The notes under the pieces were generated by a model. The model was given only the letters and a program-made list of their open reading frames with translations. It was not told where the DNA came from and did not search any database. Positions 5,483-20,127 of a stretch of DNA of 64,000 bases are shown here, piece after piece. The stretch covers positions 62,001 to 126,000 of the forward strand of contig NZ_VUMM01000002.1 of NCBI RefSeq assembly GCF_009696175.1. Reading direction: 5' to 3'. Made by a program: the position numbers and the translations under genes. How positions within the stretch are numbered: the stretch's first letter is position 1; every line of letters starts with the position of its first letter. This DNA is from Floccifex porci. Lineage in GTDB: Bacteria; Bacillota_I; Bacilli_A; Erysipelotrichales; Erysipelotrichaceae.

Positions 5483-6757
5483 CTAAATATTATCGAATGC
5501 TTGCTGAAGATCAAATAAAATATCCTCTATATCTTCAATTCCAACCGATAAACGAATTAAATCTGGTTCCACTCCGCCCGCAATCAGCTCTTCATCGTTC
5601 ATTTGTCGGTGCGTAGAAGAAGCTGGATGCAGTACACAAGTATGAGCATCGGCAACATGAGTGGCAATCATCGCAATCTTCAGATTGGACATAAAGGCTT
5701 CTGCCTTTTGTCTTCCGCCTTTGATTCCAAAGGATACGACCCCACATGTCCCATCTGGCATATATTTTTTAGCTCTGTCATAGTATTTATTGGAAGGAAG
5801 AGATGGATAATTTACCCAGGCTACTTTATCATTTGACTCTAAATATTGAGCCACTTTCAATGCGTTTTCACAATGTCTAGGCATACGAACATGTAAAGAT
5901 TCCAAACCTAAATTCAATAGATACGCATTCATAGGAGCCTGAATGGACCCAAAATCTCTCATTAGCTGAGCCGTACATTTTGTGATAAACGCTCCTTCTT
6001 TTCCAAATTTTTCAGCATAAGTGATACCATGATACGAATCATCCGGTGTTGTCAGTCCTGGAAACTTATCCGCATATTTCATCCAGTCAAATTTTCCTGC
6101 ATCTACAATACATCCACCAACCGTAGCATCGTGTCCATCCATATATTTTGTGGTTGAATGTGTCACAATATCACATCCCCATTCAATTGGACGACAATTG
6201 ATTGGAGTAGCAAATGTATTATCTACAATTAAAGGAACCCCATGCTCATGTGCTTTATTGGCCCATGCTTCAATATCAAATACAATCAGAGCTGGATTGG
6301 CAATTGTTTCTCCAAATACACATTTTGTGTTTGGTTTAAAAGCCGCTTCCAGTTCTTCCATGGAACAATCTGGTGAAAGGAAAGTAAAATCAATTCCCAT
6401 TTTACGCATTGTCACATTAAATAAATTATATGTCCCTCCATAAATTGTGGATGAACAGATCACATGATCTCCATTGTTGGCGATATTAAAAATTGAATAA
6501 AAGTTGGCAGCCTGTCCACTGCTTGTCAGCATAGCTGCACTTCCTTTTTCTAAAGCACATATTTTATTGGCTACATAATCATTTGTCGGATTCTGAAGAC
6601 GTGTATAAAAATACCCTTCTGCTTCCAGATCAAATAATTTTCCCATATCTTCACTTGTATCGTATTTAAACGTTGTACTTTGTACAATTGGAATCATTCT
6701 TGATTCTCCATTTTTAGGTGTATATCCAGCCTGAATACATTTTGTAGCTTGTTTCAT
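5483..6757 (-). CDS. metY: O-acetylhomoserine sulfhydrylase (Cys/Met metabolism PLP enzyme)
   Basis: A 424-residue PLP enzyme that joins O-acetylhomoserine with sulfide to make homocysteine. The PLP lysine is Lys204 in THSTTKYMDGH. SSGQAANFYS, DNTFATPINCRP and LIRLSVGIED are typical of the MetY branch, as is the length (MetB/MetC proteins are near 380). It precedes metA in a two-gene methionine operon. The 82-base upstream gap is too short for a SAM riboswitch and none is visible, so the regulation of this operon is not evident from sequence. Confidence 0.93.
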   Translation of the reverse strand: MKQATKCIQAGYTPKNGESRMIPIVQSTTFKYDTSEDMGKLFDLEAEGYFYTRLQNPTNDYVANKICALEKGSAAMLTSSGQAANFYSIFNIANNGDHVICSSTIYGGTYNLFNVTMRKMGIDFTFLSPDCSMEELEAAFKPNTKCVFGETIANPALIVFDIEAWANKAHEHGVPLIVDNTFATPINCRPIEWGCDIVTHSTTKYMDGHDATVGGCIVDAGKFDWMKYADKFPGLTTPDDSYHGITYAEKFGKEGAFITKCTAQLMRDFGSIQAPMNAYLLNLGLESLHVRMPRHCENALKVAQYLESNDKVAWVNYPSLPSNKYYDRAKKYMPDGTCGVVSFGIKGGRQKAEAFMSNLKIAMIATHVADAHTCVLHPASSTHRQMNDEELIAGGVEPDLIRLSVGIEDIEDILFDLQQAFDNI

Positions 6758-6824
6758 TTCACCATCTCCGTTCTATGTTTTCTATTTTATCAAAAACTTC
6801 TTTCTTTTTAAAACCTATTTTTTA

Positions 6825-6833
6825 TGCTAATGT
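6825..6833 (+). promoter_or_regulatory. Extended -10 promoter, predicted leaderless start
   Basis: TGC-TAATGT (6825-6833) is followed by six bases (ATTTCT) and the ATG at 6840. No Shine-Dalgarno sequence precedes the start codon and the -35 match is poor. Confidence 0.4.
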
Positions 6834-6839
6834 ATTTCT

Positions 6840-9344
6840 ATGAATAAAAAAATATGTGTCGGAATTTTAGCCCATGTTGATGCTGGAAAAACCACTTTAA
6901 TTGAAAGTATGTTATACACATCCGGTCAGATCCGTAAATTAGGAAGAGTTGATCATAAAGATGCTTTTTTAGATTATGATAAACAGGAAAGAGATCGAGG
7001 AATTACTATTTATTCAAAAGAAGCTTTCTTTTCATGGAAAAATACGGATATTTTTGTTCTGGATACACCTGGTCATATCGATTTTTCAAGTGAAATGGAA
7101 CGAACTTTACAGGTTCTGGATTTAGCTATTGTCCTGATCAATGGTCAGGATGGCATACAAAGTCATAGTGAAACCATATGGAAATGTCTGGCTCATTATC
7201 AGGTTCCCACTCTTATATTTATTAATAAGATGGATATTTCTTATCATTCAAAAGAAGAATTAATGAAAGATATACATGAGAAATTTTCCGAGAACTGTAT
7301 TGATTTTACTCAGAATGATCTTTATGAATCTTTAGCTATGATCAATGATTCTTTATTAAATGAATATATGAACTCTCAATCTATATCCTTATCTTCCATT
7401 CAGAATATCGTCTTTAAAAGAGAATGTTTCCCTTGTTTTTTTGGAAGTGCCTTAAAACTGGAAGGAATTGAAAATTTACTGGATGCGATGGGAGATTATA
7501 CACTTGAAAAAGAGTATGGGAATGAATTTGGCGCAAAAATCTATAAAATCACAATGGATGAACAAGGAAATCCATTAACTCATATTAAAATCACAAGTGG
7601 AACTTTAAAAGCCAAACAGAAACTGAATGAAGACAATAAAGTGGATCAGATTCGTCTATATAATGGTAAAAACTATACCCTGGTCAATGAAGCCAGTGCC
7701 GGAATGATCTGTACCCTTAAAGGTTTAGAAAACTATGAAGTCGGTCAAGGTTTAGGAATAGAAACCGACAGTGAAAAGCCATTGTTGAATGCGTGTTTGA
7801 ATTATCATCTTTTATTACCCGATGGATTTGATCCCATTCAGATGAAAAAGGTATGCGATCAGCTGGAAAGTCAGGATCCTTCTTTACATATAGAATACGA
7901 TACTGCTTTAAAAAAGATTTCTATACAGCTTATGGGTGACATTCAAATGGAAGTACTCCAGAAAAAGATCGAACAGGAAACCGGAATTCAGGTTGGTTTT
8001 TCAACCGGCAATGTCATCTTTAAAGAAACCATTGCCGATACCGTTACCGGAGTTGGTCATTTCGAACCTTTGCGTCATTATGCAGAAGTTCATTTAAAAT
8101 TAGAGCCTTTAAAAAGAAACAGTGGACTTCAATTTGAAAGTGATGTTTCTATGGATGATCTGTCTTTAAACTGGCAAAGGCTGATATTGACCCATCTGCA
8201 GGAAAAGAAACATAAAGGTGTATTAACAGGTTCTCCAATCACCGATATGAAAATCACTTTGATTGCTGGTAAAAGTCATTTGAAACATACCGAAGGTGGA
8301 GATTTCAGACAGGCTACCTATCGTGCCGTTCGTCAAGGTTTAAAGAAAGCCCAGTCTATATTATTAGAACCTTATTATTCCTTTACTTTACAATTGGATG
8401 CTCATACACTTTCAAAAGCTTTATACGATTTAGAAACAAGACAGGCAAAAGTATCCATAGAAGATAATGGAGATGGAAAAGTGATTCTTCATGGAAGAGG
8501 TCCTGTACGTTATCTGATGAATTATCATAAAGATGTAATTGCTCTAACAAGGGGAAAAGGAGTCTATTCTTGTCAGTTGGATGGATACGATGAATGTAAA
8601 GATGCCAATTCCATTATTGAATCCATTGGATATGATAGTGAACAGGATTTTAAAAATCCAACCGGTTCTGTATTCTGTACGCATGGTTCTGGATTCTATG
8701 TACCTTATGACGAAGTTGAAAATTATATGCATATTAAACCAAAAGTTGAAAATACAAGTTCTTATTCTTCTTCTAAATACAATATAAAGGAAGAAGAAGT
8801 CCAACGAGTTTTTAATATGATTTCAGGTCAGAATCAAAACAAAAAGAAACAGTACCAGAAAAAGAAAAAGAAAGAAGATTTTTCTTATCAAAGAGTGGAA
8901 ATTGAAAAGAAACTGCCTGAATGTTTAATTGTTGATGGATACAATCAGATATATGGATGGGATTCTTTAAAATCCTATGCTTCTAAAGATATAGCTTATG
9001 CCCGTGATGAACTGATTCAGCTGCTTGTAAATTATCAGGGATATAAGAATATTAAACTGATTCTGGTATTTGATGCCTATCGTGTTAAAGATGGTTCCTG
9101 TCGTAATTCAAAATATGGTGATACACAGGTTATCTATACAAATTATGGACAGACTGCAGACAGTTATATTGAAAAACTGGTTCATGATCTAAAAGGAAAA
9201 TACAGTTTAACGGTTGCCTCTTCCGATGCTCTGATTCAGAATTCGATAATGGCAAGTGGAGCGAAACGAATGAGTGCAAGAGAACTGGAAATGAGAGTTA
9301 GAAATGTGAACAAAGAAGCATTTAAAGCATTAAAGGAGGGCTAG
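6840..9344 (+). CDS. TetM-like ribosome-protection GTPase fused to a YacP/Rae1 NYN endoribonuclease
   Basis: An 834-residue fusion. Residues 1 to about 635 follow TetM/TetO and EF-G: AHVDAGKT (11-18), RGITI, DTPGH, NKMD, and a domain IV with HTEGGDFRQATYRAVRQGL and LEPYYSF. All GTP-binding motifs look intact. A lysine-rich linker (about 655-690) leads to a complete NYN nuclease domain of the YacP/Rae1 family (about 692-834): VDGYN at 697-701, LVFDAY, QTADSYIEKL, SSDALIQ and RMSARELEMRV. Rae1 of Bacillus subtilis cuts mRNA in the ribosomal A site, where TetM-like domain IV also binds. I infer a GTP-driven, ribosome-coupled mRNA nuclease or rescue factor rather than a tetracycline resistance protein. 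Confidence 0.88.
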   Translation: MNKKICVGILAHVDAGKTTLIESMLYTSGQIRKLGRVDHKDAFLDYDKQERDRGITIYSKEAFFSWKNTDIFVLDTPGHIDFSSEMERTLQVLDLAIVLINGQDGIQSHSETIWKCLAHYQVPTLIFINKMDISYHSKEELMKDIHEKFSENCIDFTQNDLYESLAMINDSLLNEYMNSQSISLSSIQNIVFKRECFPCFFGSALKLEGIENLLDAMGDYTLEKEYGNEFGAKIYKITMDEQGNPLTHIKITSGTLKAKQKLNEDNKVDQIRLYNGKNYTLVNEASAGMICTLKGLENYEVGQGLGIETDSEKPLLNACLNYHLLLPDGFDPIQMKKVCDQLESQDPSLHIEYDTALKKISIQLMGDIQMEVLQKKIEQETGIQVGFSTGNVIFKETIADTVTGVGHFEPLRHYAEVHLKLEPLKRNSGLQFESDVSMDDLSLNWQRLILTHLQEKKHKGVLTGSPITDMKITLIAGKSHLKHTEGGDFRQATYRAVRQGLKKAQSILLEPYYSFTLQLDAHTLSKALYDLETRQAKVSIEDNGDGKVILHGRGPVRYLMNYHKDVIALTRGKGVYSCQLDGYDECKDANSIIESIGYDSEQDFKNPTGSVFCTHGSGFYVPYDEVENYMHIKPKVENTSSYSSSKYNIKEEEVQRVFNMISGQNQNKKKQYQKKKKKEDFSYQRVEIEKKLPECLIVDGYNQIYGWDSLKSYASKDIAYARDELIQLLVNYQGYKNIKLILVFDAYRVKDGSCRNSKYGDTQVIYTNYGQTADSYIEKLVHDLKGKYSLTVASSDALIQNSIMASGAKRMSARELEMRVRNVNKEAFKALKEG

Positions 9345-13460: not shown

Positions 13461-13487
13461 AAAAAGGGAAAGCATTTCTACTTTCCC
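13461..13487 (-). terminator. Terminator of the GT-RecX to dUTPase operon
   Basis: GGGAAAG/CTTTCCC stem (13466-13472 and 13481-13487) with an 8-nt loop, followed by TTTTT on the minus strand. The dUTPase stop codon lies in the loop. Confidence 0.8.
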
Positions 13488-13975
13488 GAACTTCCCAATC
13501 TTCCATCGTTTCGTAAAGAAGCAATTTTTTTCAATTCATCATAAGATAAAGTTTCACTTTCTAATTGTGGCATCTTTAATAATACACCCTGACAAACGGC
13601 TTTTTCATAAGGATATAAAATATATTTTTCTTTTTGATCTTCATCCCATGTTTCTAATACTTCTTTTTTCACAATACATAAAGGCTTATCATTCACATTT
13701 GTGACAGGAGCCATATATTCTCCACGATATCCTGAATCAATCACACCTGCTCTTTGTGCCATTCCTTTTGTTCCAGTGGATCCTCTTTCTTTCAACAACA
13801 TGACATAATCACTATCAAACGCACTGGCCACTCCTAAAGGCACCAGTTTTGTATGTAATGGTAAAATTTCCAGATACTCTTCTTCAAAACAAGGATATAA
13901 ATCGTATCCTGCATCTTCTTCTCTTTTTGTTGGAATGATGGCATTTTCTTTTACTTTTGCCCAATATAATTTCAT
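13478..13975 (-). CDS. dut: dUTPase-like nucleotide hydrolase
   Basis: A 165-residue trimeric dUTPase-fold protein that would convert dUTP to dUMP and keep uracil out of DNA. The five family motifs are visible: DAGYDLY, LLKERGSTGTKG, AGVIDSGYRGEY, KAVCQGVLLKM, and a C-terminal glycine-rich arm NDGRLGSSGK. The arm lacks the usual GFGSTG phenylalanine, and there is an insertion before motif 4 (residues ~95-118), as in the longer Firmicute versions. It is the last gene of its operon and overlaps the glycosylase gene by four bases. Confidence 0.85.
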   Translation of the reverse strand: MKLYWAKVKENAIIPTKREEDAGYDLYPCFEEEYLEILPLHTKLVPLGVASAFDSDYVMLLKERGSTGTKGMAQRAGVIDSGYRGEYMAPVTNVNDKPLCIVKKEVLETWDEDQKEKYILYPYEKAVCQGVLLKMPQLESETLSYDELKKIASLRNDGRLGSSGK

Positions 13976-14439
13976 AAAAGTACTCCTTTATATTCAATAA
14001 TCAAATCTTCCAGTGTCTTTCTGGCATTGGCACTGGATGTCGATGAACAACATATTCCTTCCCTTTGAAAGTACTTTTTTAAAAGTGTATAACTCGTTTT
14101 TCCATTACAGATTATTTTTTGAATCGATGGATTTTCTTCTAATAAAAGTTCAATATCATTGGGAATGGTTTCTTTGATTGCACTATCCATACTTCCTTTT
14201 CGAATGCAGGAATGACAAATATCCCATAACGCAATCTGATTTTCTTTTAATAATTTTAGCTTTTCTTCTCTGGTTGTAACAGGCATATTGTATATTTTTG
14301 ACAACATAGGCCAGAATCGATTGGAAGGATTGGCATAATACATATTTTCTTCCAGACTTTTAATACTGGGCATGGACCCCAGTATCAGTATTTTATCATT
14401 ACCATGAACAATGGCATCAAATCCTATAATTCTTGACAT
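13972..14439 (-). CDS. DNA-deoxyinosine/uracil glycosylase, UDG superfamily (HDG type)
   Basis: A 155-residue base-excision enzyme of the uracil-DNA glycosylase fold. Residues 20-44 (LGSMPS then YYANPSNRFWP) match the hypoxanthine-DNA glycosylase branch (family 6), and SSTSSANAR at 132-140 corresponds to the DNA-intercalating loop usually written STSPANA. It should remove deaminated purine, and possibly uracil. It overlaps rimO by 16 bases and dUTPase by four, so a dUTP-cleansing enzyme and a deaminated-base repair enzyme are translated together. Confidence 0.85.
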   Translation of the reverse strand: MSRIIGFDAIVHGNDKILILGSMPSIKSLEENMYYANPSNRFWPMLSKIYNMPVTTREEKLKLLKENQIALWDICHSCIRKGSMDSAIKETIPNDIELLLEENPSIQKIICNGKTSYTLLKKYFQREGICCSSTSSANARKTLEDLIIEYKGVLL

Positions 14440-15722
14440 ATTCCATATAAATCATAGGCATTTGCCTTTTGAATTTTTACTTTCACAAAAGTACCCAATT
14501 CGATTGGAACTGTGGATGTGAAAATAACCTGTCCATCTACTTCATCTGGAGCATCAGCTATCGAACGCCCTCGATACGTTTCTTTTAGACCTTCTTTTTC
14601 TTCCACTAATACCTCAAAAACCTGACCAATTTTTTCCTGATTCTTTTCATATGAAATCTGATTTTGAAGTTTCATTAATGTTTCTAAACGATTTTGTGCG
14701 ATTTGTGCATCGACTTCTGGTTTCATATCAAAAGCTCTGGTATCTTCTTCTTTGGAATAAGTAAAAGCTCCCATACGATCCCATTTCACATTCTGTACAA
14801 ATTCCATTAATTCGTCAAAATCTTCATCTGTTTCAGAAGGAAATCCAACAATCATTGTCGTTCTTAATACTGGATGATCAAATAGAGTCTTTATGTGCTC
14901 AATGATTTCATAGGCATGTTCTTTGGTTCCTCTACGATTCATTGCCTTTAATAAACGATTGTTGGCATGCTGCATAGGAATATCAAAATAAGGAACCACT
15001 TTTTTACTTTCTTTCATTGCCAGAAGTACATCTTCCACAATTTCATCTGGATACATATATAATATACGAATCCAGTGAATTCCATCTATTTTATCGATTT
15101 CACGAACCAGATCTCCCAGCTTAAATTCTCCATAAAGATCCAAACCATATTTTGTGGTATCCTGTGCTATTAAAGTCAGTTCTTTTACCCCGTATGAAGC
15201 CAGCTGCTTGGCTTCTTCTACTAAATCTTCAATAGGACGACTGACCTGTTCCCCTCGAATCAAAGGAATCGCACAATAAGTACAATGATTGGAACATCCA
15301 TCACTGATTTTTAAATAAGCACGCCAGGGCTGTGTGGATAATACGCGTTCAAATTTAGATTCTGTAAACGTGCATCCCAACGCTTTTTCTAAAACAGATG
15401 CAAACTCATCGTAATCCTTAATAGGTATAATGGCATCAATTTCCGGAATTTCTTCTTCTAATTCTTTTTGATATCTTTGAGCTAAACACCCACATACAAT
15501 CAGTTTTTCCAGATTTTTTTCTTTATATTGAGCCATTTCAAAAATAGTCTGAATGGATTCCTCTTTTGCACTGGTAATAAATCCACATGTATTAATAATA
15601 ATGGCTTGTGCCTGTCTTGGATCCGATACAATTTCATGATGATTTTTTTTGATCATACCCATGATCTGTTCAGAATCCACCAGGTTTTTACAACATCCTA
15701 GTGATACAAATCCTATTTTCAT
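14424..15722 (-). CDS. rimO: Ribosomal protein S12 methylthiotransferase
   Basis: A 432-residue radical-SAM enzyme that methylthiolates an aspartate of ribosomal protein S12. The N-terminal MTTase domain has cysteines at 10, 46 and about 79 for one iron-sulfur cluster. The radical SAM cluster is Cys143-x3-Cys147-x2-Cys150 (SDGCSNHCTYCAIP). A TRAM domain occupies about the last 70 residues. KIGFVSLGCxKNLVDSE distinguishes RimO from MiaB. It overlaps yhaM by four bases upstream and the glycosylase downstream. Confidence 0.95.
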   Translation of the reverse strand: MKIGFVSLGCCKNLVDSEQIMGMIKKNHHEIVSDPRQAQAIIINTCGFITSAKEESIQTIFEMAQYKEKNLEKLIVCGCLAQRYQKELEEEIPEIDAIIPIKDYDEFASVLEKALGCTFTESKFERVLSTQPWRAYLKISDGCSNHCTYCAIPLIRGEQVSRPIEDLVEEAKQLASYGVKELTLIAQDTTKYGLDLYGEFKLGDLVREIDKIDGIHWIRILYMYPDEIVEDVLLAMKESKKVVPYFDIPMQHANNRLLKAMNRRGTKEHAYEIIEHIKTLFDHPVLRTTMIVGFPSETDEDFDELMEFVQNVKWDRMGAFTYSKEEDTRAFDMKPEVDAQIAQNRLETLMKLQNQISYEKNQEKIGQVFEVLVEEKEGLKETYRGRSIADAPDEVDGQVIFTSTVPIELGTFVKVKIQKANAYDLYGICQEL

Positions 15723-16648
15723 TTCTTATCCTTTCTATGATAAACCATTCGATTTTCAAGCGCAAAAAGACGGGGACCAAATTCCCCTGGTTTTGTCACA
15801 TCTATACTTTGTTTCATCATAAATAATCGAGAATCCAGATTATCCACTGTAGCTAAAACCTCTGCTTCTGGAATCATCGGAACAACAGGCGAGCCAAATT
15901 CCATTTTCCCATGATGAGATAAAATCATATGTTTCAACAATAATACACTTTCTTTATCCTGTATTTCCAATTCATAGCTTATACGATCTAAATATGAAGA
16001 AAATATACTAATATGACCAATTAAATTTCCTTTTGCGGTATATTCAGGCAATACCGGAGAAGAAAATTCTTCAATTTTTCCAATATCATGCAGTAAACAG
16101 GCACAAATCAATAAATCGGTATCTAAATATGGATACAATTCACAGATTTTCAAAGACAAACGCATCATAGATAAAGAATGATATGCTAATCCTCCAATAT
16201 AATTGTGATGGTTTTTCTTTGCGGCTGAATAAGAATAATAATCTTCTCCAACATTTTCCAGAATCGTTTGTGTTAATATTTGCAGATCGGTATCTTCTAC
16301 CTGATTTAAAATAGAATTTATTTCTTCTTTCATATCCTTTACACTCATAGGTGCTTGACGTACATAATCGGTTATTTTTTCATCTTCCAATACTTTTAAA
16401 GTTCTTACTTTCAATTGAATCGCATTTTTATGAATAATAATGTCTCCAGTAGCCTGTACAATCATACCCACTGTATAACTATCCACCTGTTCTTCTGTCA
16501 GATTCCAGAATTTTGCATCCAGTACACCCGATGAATCTTCCAAAGTCAAAGACAGATAAGGTGTTCCTTTTACTGTTTTGGCTTTATCACATCGCGTAAT
16601 TAAACAGGGAATACAAATTTTTCCCTCTTCTTGTATATCTTTAATCAT
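15719..16648 (-). CDS. yhaM: 3'-5' exoribonuclease YhaM family
   Basis: A 309-residue exoribonuclease with an N-terminal OB-fold (about residues 10-100; LTLEDSSGVLDAKFW) and a C-terminal HD hydrolase domain with HNYIGGLAYHS, LLHDIGKI and LSHHGKMEFGSP, as in B. subtilis YhaM. It trims RNA 3' ends and may also process DNA. The start overlaps the glycosyltransferase-RecX gene by eight bases, so it is translated from the same transcript. Confidence 0.92.
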   Translation of the reverse strand: MIKDIQEEGKICIPCLITRCDKAKTVKGTPYLSLTLEDSSGVLDAKFWNLTEEQVDSYTVGMIVQATGDIIIHKNAIQLKVRTLKVLEDEKITDYVRQAPMSVKDMKEEINSILNQVEDTDLQILTQTILENVGEDYYSYSAAKKNHHNYIGGLAYHSLSMMRLSLKICELYPYLDTDLLICACLLHDIGKIEEFSSPVLPEYTAKGNLIGHISIFSSYLDRISYELEIQDKESVLLLKHMILSHHGKMEFGSPVVPMIPEAEVLATVDNLDSRLFMMKQSIDVTKPGEFGPRLFALENRMVYHRKDKK

Positions 16649-18608
16649 CTTCTATCTCCTTTAATTTATTATCGATCAGATCCACTGAAAATCCTTTTCT
16701 AATACAATACATACGTATTTTATTATATTTTGTATCTTCTTCAAAATTAGAATACAGTCTTTTGGCTTTACGAATGGATTTTTCCAATGCCTCTTCATCA
16801 AAATCTTCTTTAAATTCAAGCTGATCCAAAGCATATTGTGCATCATCAAAGGAAAAACCTGCATTTAAACATTTCTGTATGATTCTTTGTGAAAACATTT
16901 TTCTTGATTGAGAATTTGAAGAAGTTTTAATATGTTTCACAAACCAAATCACATTTTCTCTTTCTTTTTCCTTATCTAATTTTGATAACGCTTCCTGAAT
17001 AAAATCTTCATTGATATGAAGTGATCTTAATTTACGACTGATTTCATTGATACTTTTACCAGAATGCTGCCAGTACTGGGCTTTATCAATCGCATATATG
17101 CGATCATTAATTAATAATTTCTGTTCCAGTATATGAACAACAACATCAATATCTTCATTTGGCAGATCTAAATATCGATGGCAGTATTTCTGAATTTCAA
17201 AACTGCAGCAATCTTTTTGTAGACAATGTTGTTTAACTTTTGAATAAGCTTTATACACCGATTGAAGCTCATCGTAATTATCAAATAATTCTGTATGGAT
17301 TACAGAATTTATTTCAAGCTGCAGATCCACAACATCTTCTAAAGGAATCAGCAATTTACGAAGTTCTTTATTCCCATCACTTGAAAAAGTAACCAGTAAA
17401 AAATCATTGGCATCTTCCATTTTTTCAACTGTATATTTCTTTTCATACTGTTTTATCGCAAACTGGTATACATCCAAAACATCTCGAGCAAAAATATCCG
17501 TATCATAAGGTATCGTTTTTTCTATACACTTATTAGAAACAGATATTCTTTCTTCTTTATCCTGTGCAAAAAATTCATCCAGTTTTTTTGCCAGTTCAAT
17601 TTCATCATCAAAATAATAACCTGTAATTCCTTCATCAATTAATTCATCCAATACCTCATCTCTTCTTCCAAACACACACAAACCACTGGCCAATGCTTCA
17701 ATATAAGTCATTCCCTGTGTTTCAGAAACCGATGCAGATACAAAACAGTCAAATGCAGAATAATAGTAAGGTACCATAGGTTTATCAATCATACCAGTGA
17801 AATGAACACGGGATTCCAAGTCTAGATTGTGAACCAGATTCTGATAATATTCTAAATCGGTTCCCTTACCAACAATTACTAAATGTAAATTTTCATCTTT
17901 TGAATATTTTAAAGCTTTTATTGGGATATCAATTGCCTTTTCTTTAGCAATTCTTCCCACAAAAGTTACAACATGATCTTCTTCCGTTAAATTTAAAGAT
18001 GGTCGAATGGATGATAAAATGTCTTGATCCAGTGATCTACGATCAAAGTGACTTAAATCCAACCCTGTAGGAATTACAAAAATAGGAGAATGTGCCCCAT
18101 AATCTATTAATTTCTTTTTCGTTTTCATACTGGGAGCAATCACTGCCAAAGAATGATTGACCCAGTATTTTGAAAATTTACGAATAATCAGTTTTTCTCC
18201 TTCATCAATTAGATTCAGATCAAGTGGATTTAAATAATGTGTATAATCTTCATACATTGTATGGTAAGTATATACAAGTGGAATATGAAAGGATTTAGAC
18301 ATAATACGAGCAAACATACCTATTCCTGCTTCCGTCTGAACATGTATAATATCTAAATTCATATCGCGTATATAATCGGATCCTTTAAATTGAATCGGGC
18401 TGGATAATTTATAGCCATAAAATTTTTTTAATTCCAAACCAGGTAAACGTAAAATATTTTCCTTAAAATCTATATCTGAACCTTTATGATTTGAAATCAC
18501 AAAAACAGTATGACCTCGTTTTTCTAACGCTTCTTTTAAAGTAGCCACACTTGAAACAACACCATTTATATCTGGATAATAAGCATCTGTAAACAATCCA
18601 ACACGCAT
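16641..18608 (-). CDS. GT4 glycosyltransferase fused to a full-length RecX
   Basis: A 655-residue fusion with no internal stop. Residues 1 to about 388 are a GT-B glycosyltransferase family 4 enzyme like diacylglycerol glucosyltransferases: RVGLFTDAYYPDINGVVSS, HVQTEAGIG, TYHTMYEDY, FVGRIAKEKAID, and the nucleotide-sugar motif VSETQGMTYIEALASG (294-309). Residues about 393-655 match RecX throughout: a beta-strand N-domain (VEKMEDANDFLLVTF), then three-helix repeats including LEQKLLINDRIYA, GKSINEISRKLRSLHI and IRMYCIRKGFSVDLIDNKL. RecX controls RecA filaments; the glucosyltransferase makes membrane glycolipid. GGAG eight bases before the ATG supports the start. Confidence 0.88.
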   Translation of the reverse strand: MRVGLFTDAYYPDINGVVSSVATLKEALEKRGHTVFVISNHKGSDIDFKENILRLPGLELKKFYGYKLSSPIQFKGSDYIRDMNLDIIHVQTEAGIGMFARIMSKSFHIPLVYTYHTMYEDYTHYLNPLDLNLIDEGEKLIIRKFSKYWVNHSLAVIAPSMKTKKKLIDYGAHSPIFVIPTGLDLSHFDRRSLDQDILSSIRPSLNLTEEDHVVTFVGRIAKEKAIDIPIKALKYSKDENLHLVIVGKGTDLEYYQNLVHNLDLESRVHFTGMIDKPMVPYYYSAFDCFVSASVSETQGMTYIEALASGLCVFGRRDEVLDELIDEGITGYYFDDEIELAKKLDEFFAQDKEERISVSNKCIEKTIPYDTDIFARDVLDVYQFAIKQYEKKYTVEKMEDANDFLLVTFSSDGNKELRKLLIPLEDVVDLQLEINSVIHTELFDNYDELQSVYKAYSKVKQHCLQKDCCSFEIQKYCHRYLDLPNEDIDVVVHILEQKLLINDRIYAIDKAQYWQHSGKSINEISRKLRSLHINEDFIQEALSKLDKEKERENVIWFVKHIKTSSNSQSRKMFSQRIIQKCLNAGFSFDDAQYALDQLEFKEDFDEEALEKSIRKAKRLYSNFEEDTKYNKIRMYCIRKGFSVDLIDNKLKEIEDD

Positions 18609-18635
18609 ATTTTATACTCCTCTTTAAGTATTATT

Positions 18636-18663
18636 AATATATCAAAAAAATCTTAATATTCAA
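18636..18663 (-). promoter_or_regulatory. Promoter of the GT-RecX operon
   Basis: Minus-strand TTGAAT (18658-18663), 16 bases, TATATT (18636-18641), then GAGGAG and the ATG at 18608. The 294 bases between 18609 and 18902 also hold the candidate small RNA and its promoter. Confidence 0.6.
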
Positions 18664-18687: not shown

Positions 18688-18765
18688 AAAGAACAAAACC
18701 GGCATATGCCGGCCTGTCCATAAATTTAAGAAAGGGAATTTGATTATGAAGGGTTATTTAACCCC
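18688..18765 (-). ncRNA. Candidate trans-acting small RNA, about 76 nt
   Basis: A complete transcription unit without a plausible reading frame. A promoter (TTTGAA-17-TATAAT with extended TGT) ends at 18771. The predicted 5' end near 18765 begins GGGG and folds into GGGTT-AAAT-AACCC (18751-18764). A single-stranded pyrimidine-rich region follows, with TTCCCTTTCTT at about 18729-18739. The 3' end is a CCGGC-ATAT-GCCGG hairpin (18699-18712) followed by TTTTGTTCTTTT. Two hairpins flanking an exposed C-rich, anti-Shine-Dalgarno loop is the layout of many Firmicute regulatory RNAs. I do not recognise a named family. Confidence 0.5.
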
Positions 18766-19311: not shown

Positions 19312-20127
19312 TTATCCAAGTAATCCTACAACAGATCCAACGAATCCTACAACTACCATCAATAATAAACATTTAACAGGTGACATACCTTTCTTAGCCA
19401 TTAAGTACCAGCATAATAATACGAATAAGCATGTCAATAATTTAGGATAAGCACCGTCTAATTTAGATCCTAATGTGATGTCAGCACCAGTTGAGTCTTG
19501 AGCAATTACGATGTTTGTTGAAATTGCAACCCAAGAAGCAGCCATCGCACCAACGATTACTTGACCCATTGTGATTACAGCGTTACGGAATGCAGTAGCA
19601 CGATCCCCAACTAATAATTCAACAGCAGATCCACCTAAGTTATATCCTAAGAAATAAATGTAGTGTTGGAACCAAATTGAAGTAGCGTTCCATACAACGA
19701 TGTAGAAAATAGGACCGATAGCAGATCCACCTTCAGCGAATCCTAAAGCGATACCTAATAAGATAGGAATATATGTACCAACGATTAATGAGTCACCGAT
19801 ACCAGCTAAAGGACCCATCAAACCAGCACGGATACCATTGATCATTTCATCATCGATTCCGTCTGCTCCATTAGCACGTGCTTCTTCCAAACCAGCAGTG
19901 ATACCAACAACGATACATCCGATTTGTGGTTCAGTGTTGAAGAATGGATAGTATGTTTGCATTTTTTCGCATTGTTCTTCATGAGTTGGATACAATTCTT
20001 TGATGATTGGTAACATTGACCACATGTATCCAAATGTTTGCATGTGTTCGTGTGAGAAACATGTTAAGTTTCCATACCACCAACGCCAGAAGGAACTATT
20101 TAAAGTTTTCTTAGAGATTTTTTTCAT
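19312..20127 (-). CDS. manZ: PTS mannose-family IID subunit (ManZ-like)
   Basis: A 271-residue IID protein of the mannose/glucose branch: SFWRWWYGNLTCFSHEHMQTFGYMWSMLP at the N-terminus, then GCIVVGITAGLEEARANG, IRAGLMGPLAGIGDSL and several membrane segments. The WWYGN and MQ-x-GYMWSM segments are typical of ManZ-type proteins. It follows IIC by two bases and ends at a terminator. The gene uses a strikingly regular codon choice, in line with a highly expressed system. Confidence 0.92.
   Translation of the reverse strand: MKKISKKTLNSSFWRWWYGNLTCFSHEHMQTFGYMWSMLPIIKELYPTHEEQCEKMQTYYPFFNTEPQIGCIVVGITAGLEEARANGADGIDDEMINGIRAGLMGPLAGIGDSLIVGTYIPILLGIALGFAEGGSAIGPIFYIVVWNATSIWFQHYIYFLGYNLGGSAVELLVGDRATAFRNAVITMGQVIVGAMAASWVAISTNIVIAQDSTGADITLGSKLDGAYPKLLTCLFVLLCWYLMAKKGMSPVKCLLLMVVVGFVGSVVGLLG

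Follow-up and report, generated by a model that had tools for sequence, protein, structure and literature searches.

This locus raises the question of whether the joining of a glycosyltransferase to the RecA modulator RecX in one polypeptide means that the two activities are coupled or that neighboring genes simply fused, two possibilities that were both put forward in an earlier note on this DNA. Within the window, i.e., the whole 64-kb stretch of the Floccifex porci genome that was analyzed, a minus-strand frame runs from an ATG at 18608 to a stop at 16641 and encodes a single protein of 655 amino acids, with 0 internal stops in an open-frame scan. Its parts are as follows (positions are those of the window).

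16641..18608, minus strand: fused gene, GT4 glycosyltransferase plus RecX, 655 amino acids (open frame, family matches, and model)
17445..18608, minus strand: glycosyltransferase half, residues 1-388, GT-B fold, E-x7-E motif ETQGMTYIE at residues 296-304 (family matches, model, and fold match)
17409..17501, minus strand: junction, residues 370-400 (model)
16641..17444, minus strand: RecX half, residues 389-655, N-terminal β part plus tandem three-helix repeats (family matches, profile, and model)

The glycosyltransferase half shows two Rossmann-like domains and the E-x7-E motif of GT4/GT-B enzymes, and both E296 and E304 are invariant in the 44 fused proteins that were aligned (44/44). Pfam PF13439 (GT4) and PF00534 (GT1 domain) score above their cut-offs in residues 1-388, and a fold search with the full-length model matched the retaining GT-B enzymes MshA, BshA, and PimA, in agreement with the description of residues 1-388 as a complete GT-B enzyme; the nucleotide-sugar motif VSETQGMTYIEA that had been pointed out starts at residue 294. 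The curated family that scores best across the whole length of this half, and that is matched by 44 of 44 fused members, is the NCBIfam alpha-monoglucosyldiacylglycerol synthase (Mgs; NF049988), with residues 1-392 matching at 2.1e-73 and 247.9 bits, below the equivalog cut-off of 400. The F. porci enzyme differs from Mgs in this score and in carrying RecX. The product of the N-terminal half, judged by family and fold, is most likely a monoglucosyl-diacylglycerol-type glycolipid of the membrane. The claim that it glycosylates diacylglycerol thus agrees with the nearest family and holds at the level of family resemblance, with a score under the cut-off.

For the C-terminal half, the NCBIfam RecX model matches residues 419-653 at 1.5e-25 and 90.4 bits, below its cut-off of 240, and the Pfam model RecX_HTH3 scores above its cut-off, with HTH2 and HTH1 below theirs. 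Low NCBIfam scores are not peculiar to the fusion, as three free RecX proteins of relatives that were scanned also fell far below the cut-off. A profile of 19 relatives, searched against the PDB, matched 3e3v (1.2e-27) and 3d5l (1.2e-25) as well as 3c1d and 3dfg, and at an E value of ≤0.01, the only match besides RecX structures was one designed protein. The AlphaFold2 model of the RecX half alone (mean pLDDT, 92.6) has an N-terminal three-strand β part followed by about four tandem three-helix repeats, and the PDB fold matches at an E value of ≤0.001 were three RecX chains (3d5l A, 3d5l B, and 3e3v), with 3dfg next at 1.1e-3. Structure prediction therefore upholds the RecX identity that had been assigned, with only RecX structures matching significantly, as well as the three-helix repeats; of the complete RecX pattern that had been described, the β domain and the repeats stand, whereas HTH2 is weak at the sequence level in this copy.

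Fold, sequence profile, and the presence of recA in the same genome all place this half among RecX proteins. The recA gene is intact (525 bits; cut-off, 325), and the fused copy is the genome's sole recX: the NCBIfam RecX model found no second copy in the 2.02-Mb genome, the one other row being noise (13.7 bits over 26 positions), and Pfam RecX_HTH2 gave zero matches in the same 2.02 Mb. The N-terminal β part and the tandem three-helix repeats are shared with RecX proteins of Firmicutes (such as B. subtilis YfhG/RecX, L. reuteri 3d5l, and L. salivarius 3e3v); the F. porci protein differs from these in being joined to the C terminus of a glycosyltransferase, in its weak HTH2, and in its net charge of −9. 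In length, the RecX half comes near B. subtilis RecX, which has 264 residues and modulates RecA (PMC3527212), and RecX is described in PMC9252578 as shortening and disassembling RecA filaments. Given its family and fold, the C-terminal half is most likely a modulator of RecA filaments, like other RecX proteins.

In the full-length model (mean pLDDT, 86.9; pTM, 0.63, a modest value that limits the reading of how the halves sit together), the last glycosyltransferase helix (residues 370-389) is predicted to lead directly into the first RecX strand (residues 391-400), with pLDDT values of 86 to 93 in these blocks, and a disordered or flexible linker appears to be absent. A ribosome site with a start is likewise absent at the junction of the F. 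porci copy; the frame and the junction scan thus confirm the statement in the earlier note that neither a stop nor an internal ribosome site separates the halves.

How widespread the fusion is was asked in the same note. A recX match was obtained for 191 of the 196 genomes of the Erysipelotrichales-type order, and 172 of these 191 are fused; the fusion is an order-wide trait. The 172 consist of 167 with frames of at least 620 amino acids, the length by which they were called fused, 4 that are cut by contig ends with glycosyltransferase sequence still ahead of RecX (G133, G139, G042, and G179), and 1 (G061, locus L180) that has a frameshift inside the glycosyltransferase and was counted as fused. 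Both halves were checked with profiles in 75 distinct fused frames, which come from two collections and some of which are cut by contig ends. Among the remaining genomes, 14 are without the glycosyltransferase and have recX still beside yhaM, and 5 have separate overlapping genes. As for the five genomes without a recX match, G041 and G062 have no recA match either and seem unreadable, the sequence of G081 breaks off within the glycosyltransferase, G174 has a completeness of 80%, and G112 is the reverse case, with a free 402-amino-acid glycosyltransferase (L173, 6158-7363) and no recX found in the genome.

The fusion was also present at full length in 23 of the best 80 loci of a contig collection, and it occurs in named strains of Holdemanella, Faecalicoccus, Longicatena, Amedibacillus, Traorella, Dielma, and Breznakia. 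Outside the order but within the class, none of the 114 matches listed is fused, 113 of them lying in frames of 164 to 317 amino acids; an 881-amino-acid frame outside the order (G338) turned out on fetching to be a 259-amino-acid recX frame without a glycosyltransferase. No fused frame outside the order was present among the matches listed in a wider draw from the phylum. In a Clostridia metagenome-assembled genome, one frame (L032, 5842-8181) joins an IagA/BgsA-like glycosyltransferase to a monoglucosyldiacylglycerol-synthase-like one; it was rejected as a relative, as a glycosyltransferase-glycosyltransferase fusion is another protein.

An origin of the fusion is suggested by the outgroups. 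In 19 of the 57 nonfused loci of the best-80 set, recX directly follows a glycosyltransferase gene and overlaps its 3′ end, and a yhaM relative is present as well. The relative frame of the two overlapping genes is identical in 19 of 19 loci, and in 17 of these, the GTG or ATG start of recX is preceded by a 5- to 6-nucleotide ribosome-site match inside the glycosyltransferase gene. The glycosyltransferase-recX-yhaM sets of other Bacilli, as represented by L039 and L083 (17 further loci have the same glycosyltransferase-recX overlap), have genes, order, and relative frame in common and differ from the fused locus in encoding two proteins, with recX having its own ribosome site. In L039 and L083, the glycosyltransferase gene is preceded by that of a large polytopic membrane protein, presumably a lysylphosphatidylglycerol-synthase/AglD-type flippase. 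A strong ribosome site at the junction is found in 5 of 75 fused genes versus 17 of 19 overlap loci (Fisher P value, 2e-12). Junction sites of any kind occur in 11 of 75 fused genes versus 222 of 962 control windows taken from these genes, and an internal start for the translation of RecX was rejected for the fused genes, as there is no excess of sites over the control windows. Since the fused genes lack the internal ribosome site, RecX is now probably made 1:1 with the glycosyltransferase, as far as can be read from the sequence.

In a tree of RecX plus YhaM, built by a quick method without bootstrap, the 19 outgroup rows form one clade and the 99 rows of the order another (SH-aLRT, 99 each). 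Both families of the order are fused at the base, and the deepest split within the order has fused rows on either side of it, which makes one fusion at the base of the order the simplest account. Five genomes stand twice in the overlapping loci of this tree (G148, G125, G171, G185, and G006), and L180 is labeled as lacking the glycosyltransferase though its gene is just frameshifted; with this corrected, the 15 rows without the glycosyltransferase are 14 genomes, and the 9 split rows are 5 genomes. The fusion is thus probably an order-wide merger of overlapping neighbors with a single origin. That adjacent genes simply fused, as the earlier note had allowed, is favored by the overlap in the outgroups and by later losses of the glycosyltransferase with recX kept.

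The reading that we prefer, with a probability of roughly 0.7, is that one frame-shift fusion of overlapping neighbors gave a double protein in which the halves keep their own jobs and the fusion is tolerated. The ancestor would have had a glycosyltransferase gene and recX as overlapping neighbors, as seen in the outgroups, and a small frame change in the overlap, presumably one indel, would have merged the frames in a single event at the root of the order. With the loss of its internal ribosome site, recX would then have been expressed solely in fused form, C-terminal to the glycosyltransferase and in a 1:1 ratio with it. The halves would act on their own, and the fusion would be kept by inertia and now and then undone; functional coupling of the halves is most likely absent.

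Such undoing is seen in two forms. In 14 genomes of about five clades, recX was retained after loss of the glycosyltransferase (G107, G102, and G002; G167 and G186; G131; G083 and G137; and six genomes of genus g4), and the pair was split again in 5 genomes of about three clades (G148; G125; and G171, G176, and G185). The halves are separable, as these losses and splits show, and since RecX is kept where the glycosyltransferase is gone, it does not need its partner, which favors independent jobs. In a profile search for the enzyme, in which true copies score at least 480 bits, the best matches in the 14 loss genomes were 61 to 160 bits in 11 and 320 to 339 bits, elsewhere in the genome, in 3. 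One loss locus (L177 of G083, 6064-7218, minus strand) has a 385-amino-acid frame that consists of a glycosyltransferase-like start (MRIGFLTNAY...), about 120 degenerate residues, and an intact RecX. The match of this start to the glycosyltransferase is weak (E value of 1.9e-4 for one target), and the frame is no more than suggestive of a glycosyltransferase in decay whose start may still serve as that of RecX.

A functional fusion, in which a peripheral-membrane glycosyltransferase would hold RecX at the membrane and thereby tie RecA control to lipid synthesis spatially or metabolically, seems to us unlikely, as RecX survives alone after about five losses of the glycosyltransferase and after three splits. 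It would fit the fused state being kept in 172 of 191 genomes and a junction that appears to have neither a linker nor an internal start, and membrane binding by an amphipathic helix is described for a mycoplasma glycolipid synthase in PMC6506492. Counted against inertia is the retention of the fusion through deep divergence (RecX halves to about 21% identity); this deep persistence, with just about three resplits, could mean selection for the fusion.

The net charge of RecX bears on the same point. Its mean is −2.3 in fused rows (n = 75), +6.2 in outgroup rows (n = 19), and +5.1 in rows labeled as lacking the glycosyltransferase (n = 15), the rows being those of the tree, with duplicates and the mislabeled L180 included; YhaM, as a control, shows no such shift (−10.8, −10.1, and −10.7, respectively). 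When loss clades are compared with their nearest fused relatives, free RecX is more basic on average in 4 of 5 contrasts; in the fifth, genus g4, the charge of free RecX is no different from that of fused RecX, which speaks against a functional fusion. The RecX halves of genus g23 (L136, L138, L145, L148, L181, and L182) lie between −12 and −22 and are far more acidic than most of the free RecX proteins analyzed. Inertia alone does not explain the less positive charge of fused RecX, which looks as if its own DNA binding were less needed, and the shift therefore keeps the functional reading alive; it may reflect a changed contact with DNA or RecA, or chance in few lineages. In a membrane-bound RecA modulator, a glycolipid synthase would hold RecX 1:1, lipid synthesis or membrane state would set the amount and place of RecA restraint, and the charge loss would be a trace of this; we think this slightly more doubtful still.

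A connection from membrane state or envelope synthesis to the SOS response had also been proposed. The fused gene heads a tight operon in which each gene overlaps the preceding one, and mannose/sorbose-type phosphotransferase system (PTS) components are among the genes upstream.

18696..18715, minus strand: terminator-like hairpin between the fused gene and the upstream PTS genes (motif scan; 3 such sites found in the region versus 0.4 expected)
18636..18663, minus strand: promoter-like site TTGAAT-16-TATATT with TG extension (consensus match only; 8 such sites found in the region versus 5.6 expected)
18617..18623, minus strand: ribosome-binding site AGAGGAG, 8 nucleotides before the ATG (sequence)
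15719..16648, minus strand: YhaM-type OB-HD exoribonuclease, next gene, 8-nucleotide overlap with the fused gene (family match)
14424..15722, minus strand: rimO, same operon (495 bits; cut-off, 357)
13972..14439, minus strand: DNA-deoxyinosine glycosylase of the UDG superfamily, same operon (TIGR04274, 139.8 bits; cut-off, 80)
13478..13975, minus strand: dUTPase-family protein, same operon (Pfam above cut-off, NCBIfam below)

Family matches bear out the operon of YhaM, RimO, DNA glycosylase, and dUTPase that had been read from the sequence, the last being a dUTPase relative; the glycosylase and the dUTPase-family gene form a compact base-damage pair. No LexA-type box lies between the fused gene and position 19679, near-matches to the box across the 64-kb window number 20 versus 19.1 expected, and a perfect box within 300 nucleotides upstream was found in 0 of the 20 fused relatives examined (of 23), with a single-mismatch box in 2. 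The best match in a genome-wide search for a LexA gene has 78.9 bits, below the cut-off of 110.95. The proposed SOS connection is thus unsupported, and the missing LexA-like box also counts against a functional fusion.

Still less probable is a RecX half that has given up RecA regulation and now serves the glycosyltransferase as a structural or regulatory appendix. The weak HTH2, the acidic shift to −22 in one clade, and the faster evolution of the RecX half, with 21 to 58% identity to the F. porci copy among fused relatives versus 38 to 78% for the glycosyltransferase half, would agree with such a role. However, the ratio of RecX to glycosyltransferase distances is 1.35 for fused genes (300 pairs, 72 loci) and 1.51 for separate ones (171 pairs, 19 loci); RecX is faster also when the genes are separate, and the fast RecX half is therefore no sign of fusion-driven decay. 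Moreover, genomes that lost the glycosyltransferase have kept recX, and the sole recX of F. porci stands beside an intact recA. In all close fused pairs, dN/dS is below 0.3 for both halves, i.e., both are under purifying selection. Lastly, an assembly or frame artifact, in which a sequencing error joined two genes of what is a single draft assembly of 44 contigs, is already refuted, as the same fusion recurs in 172 of 191 genomes and in 23 independent contig records, of which several belong to named type strains.

In the open-licence papers searched, we found none on a fusion of this kind, which is not proof that it is unreported. The findings correct the search for RecX, and its annotation, for a whole order of gut bacteria, in which Pfam RecX_HTH2 misses the F. 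porci copy. They also provide a well-sampled natural series, from overlapping genes through fusion to splitting and the disappearance of one partner, in which the question of whether fused genes are functionally coupled can be addressed. If RecX were indeed tethered to the membrane, lipid synthesis would be linked to recombination control.
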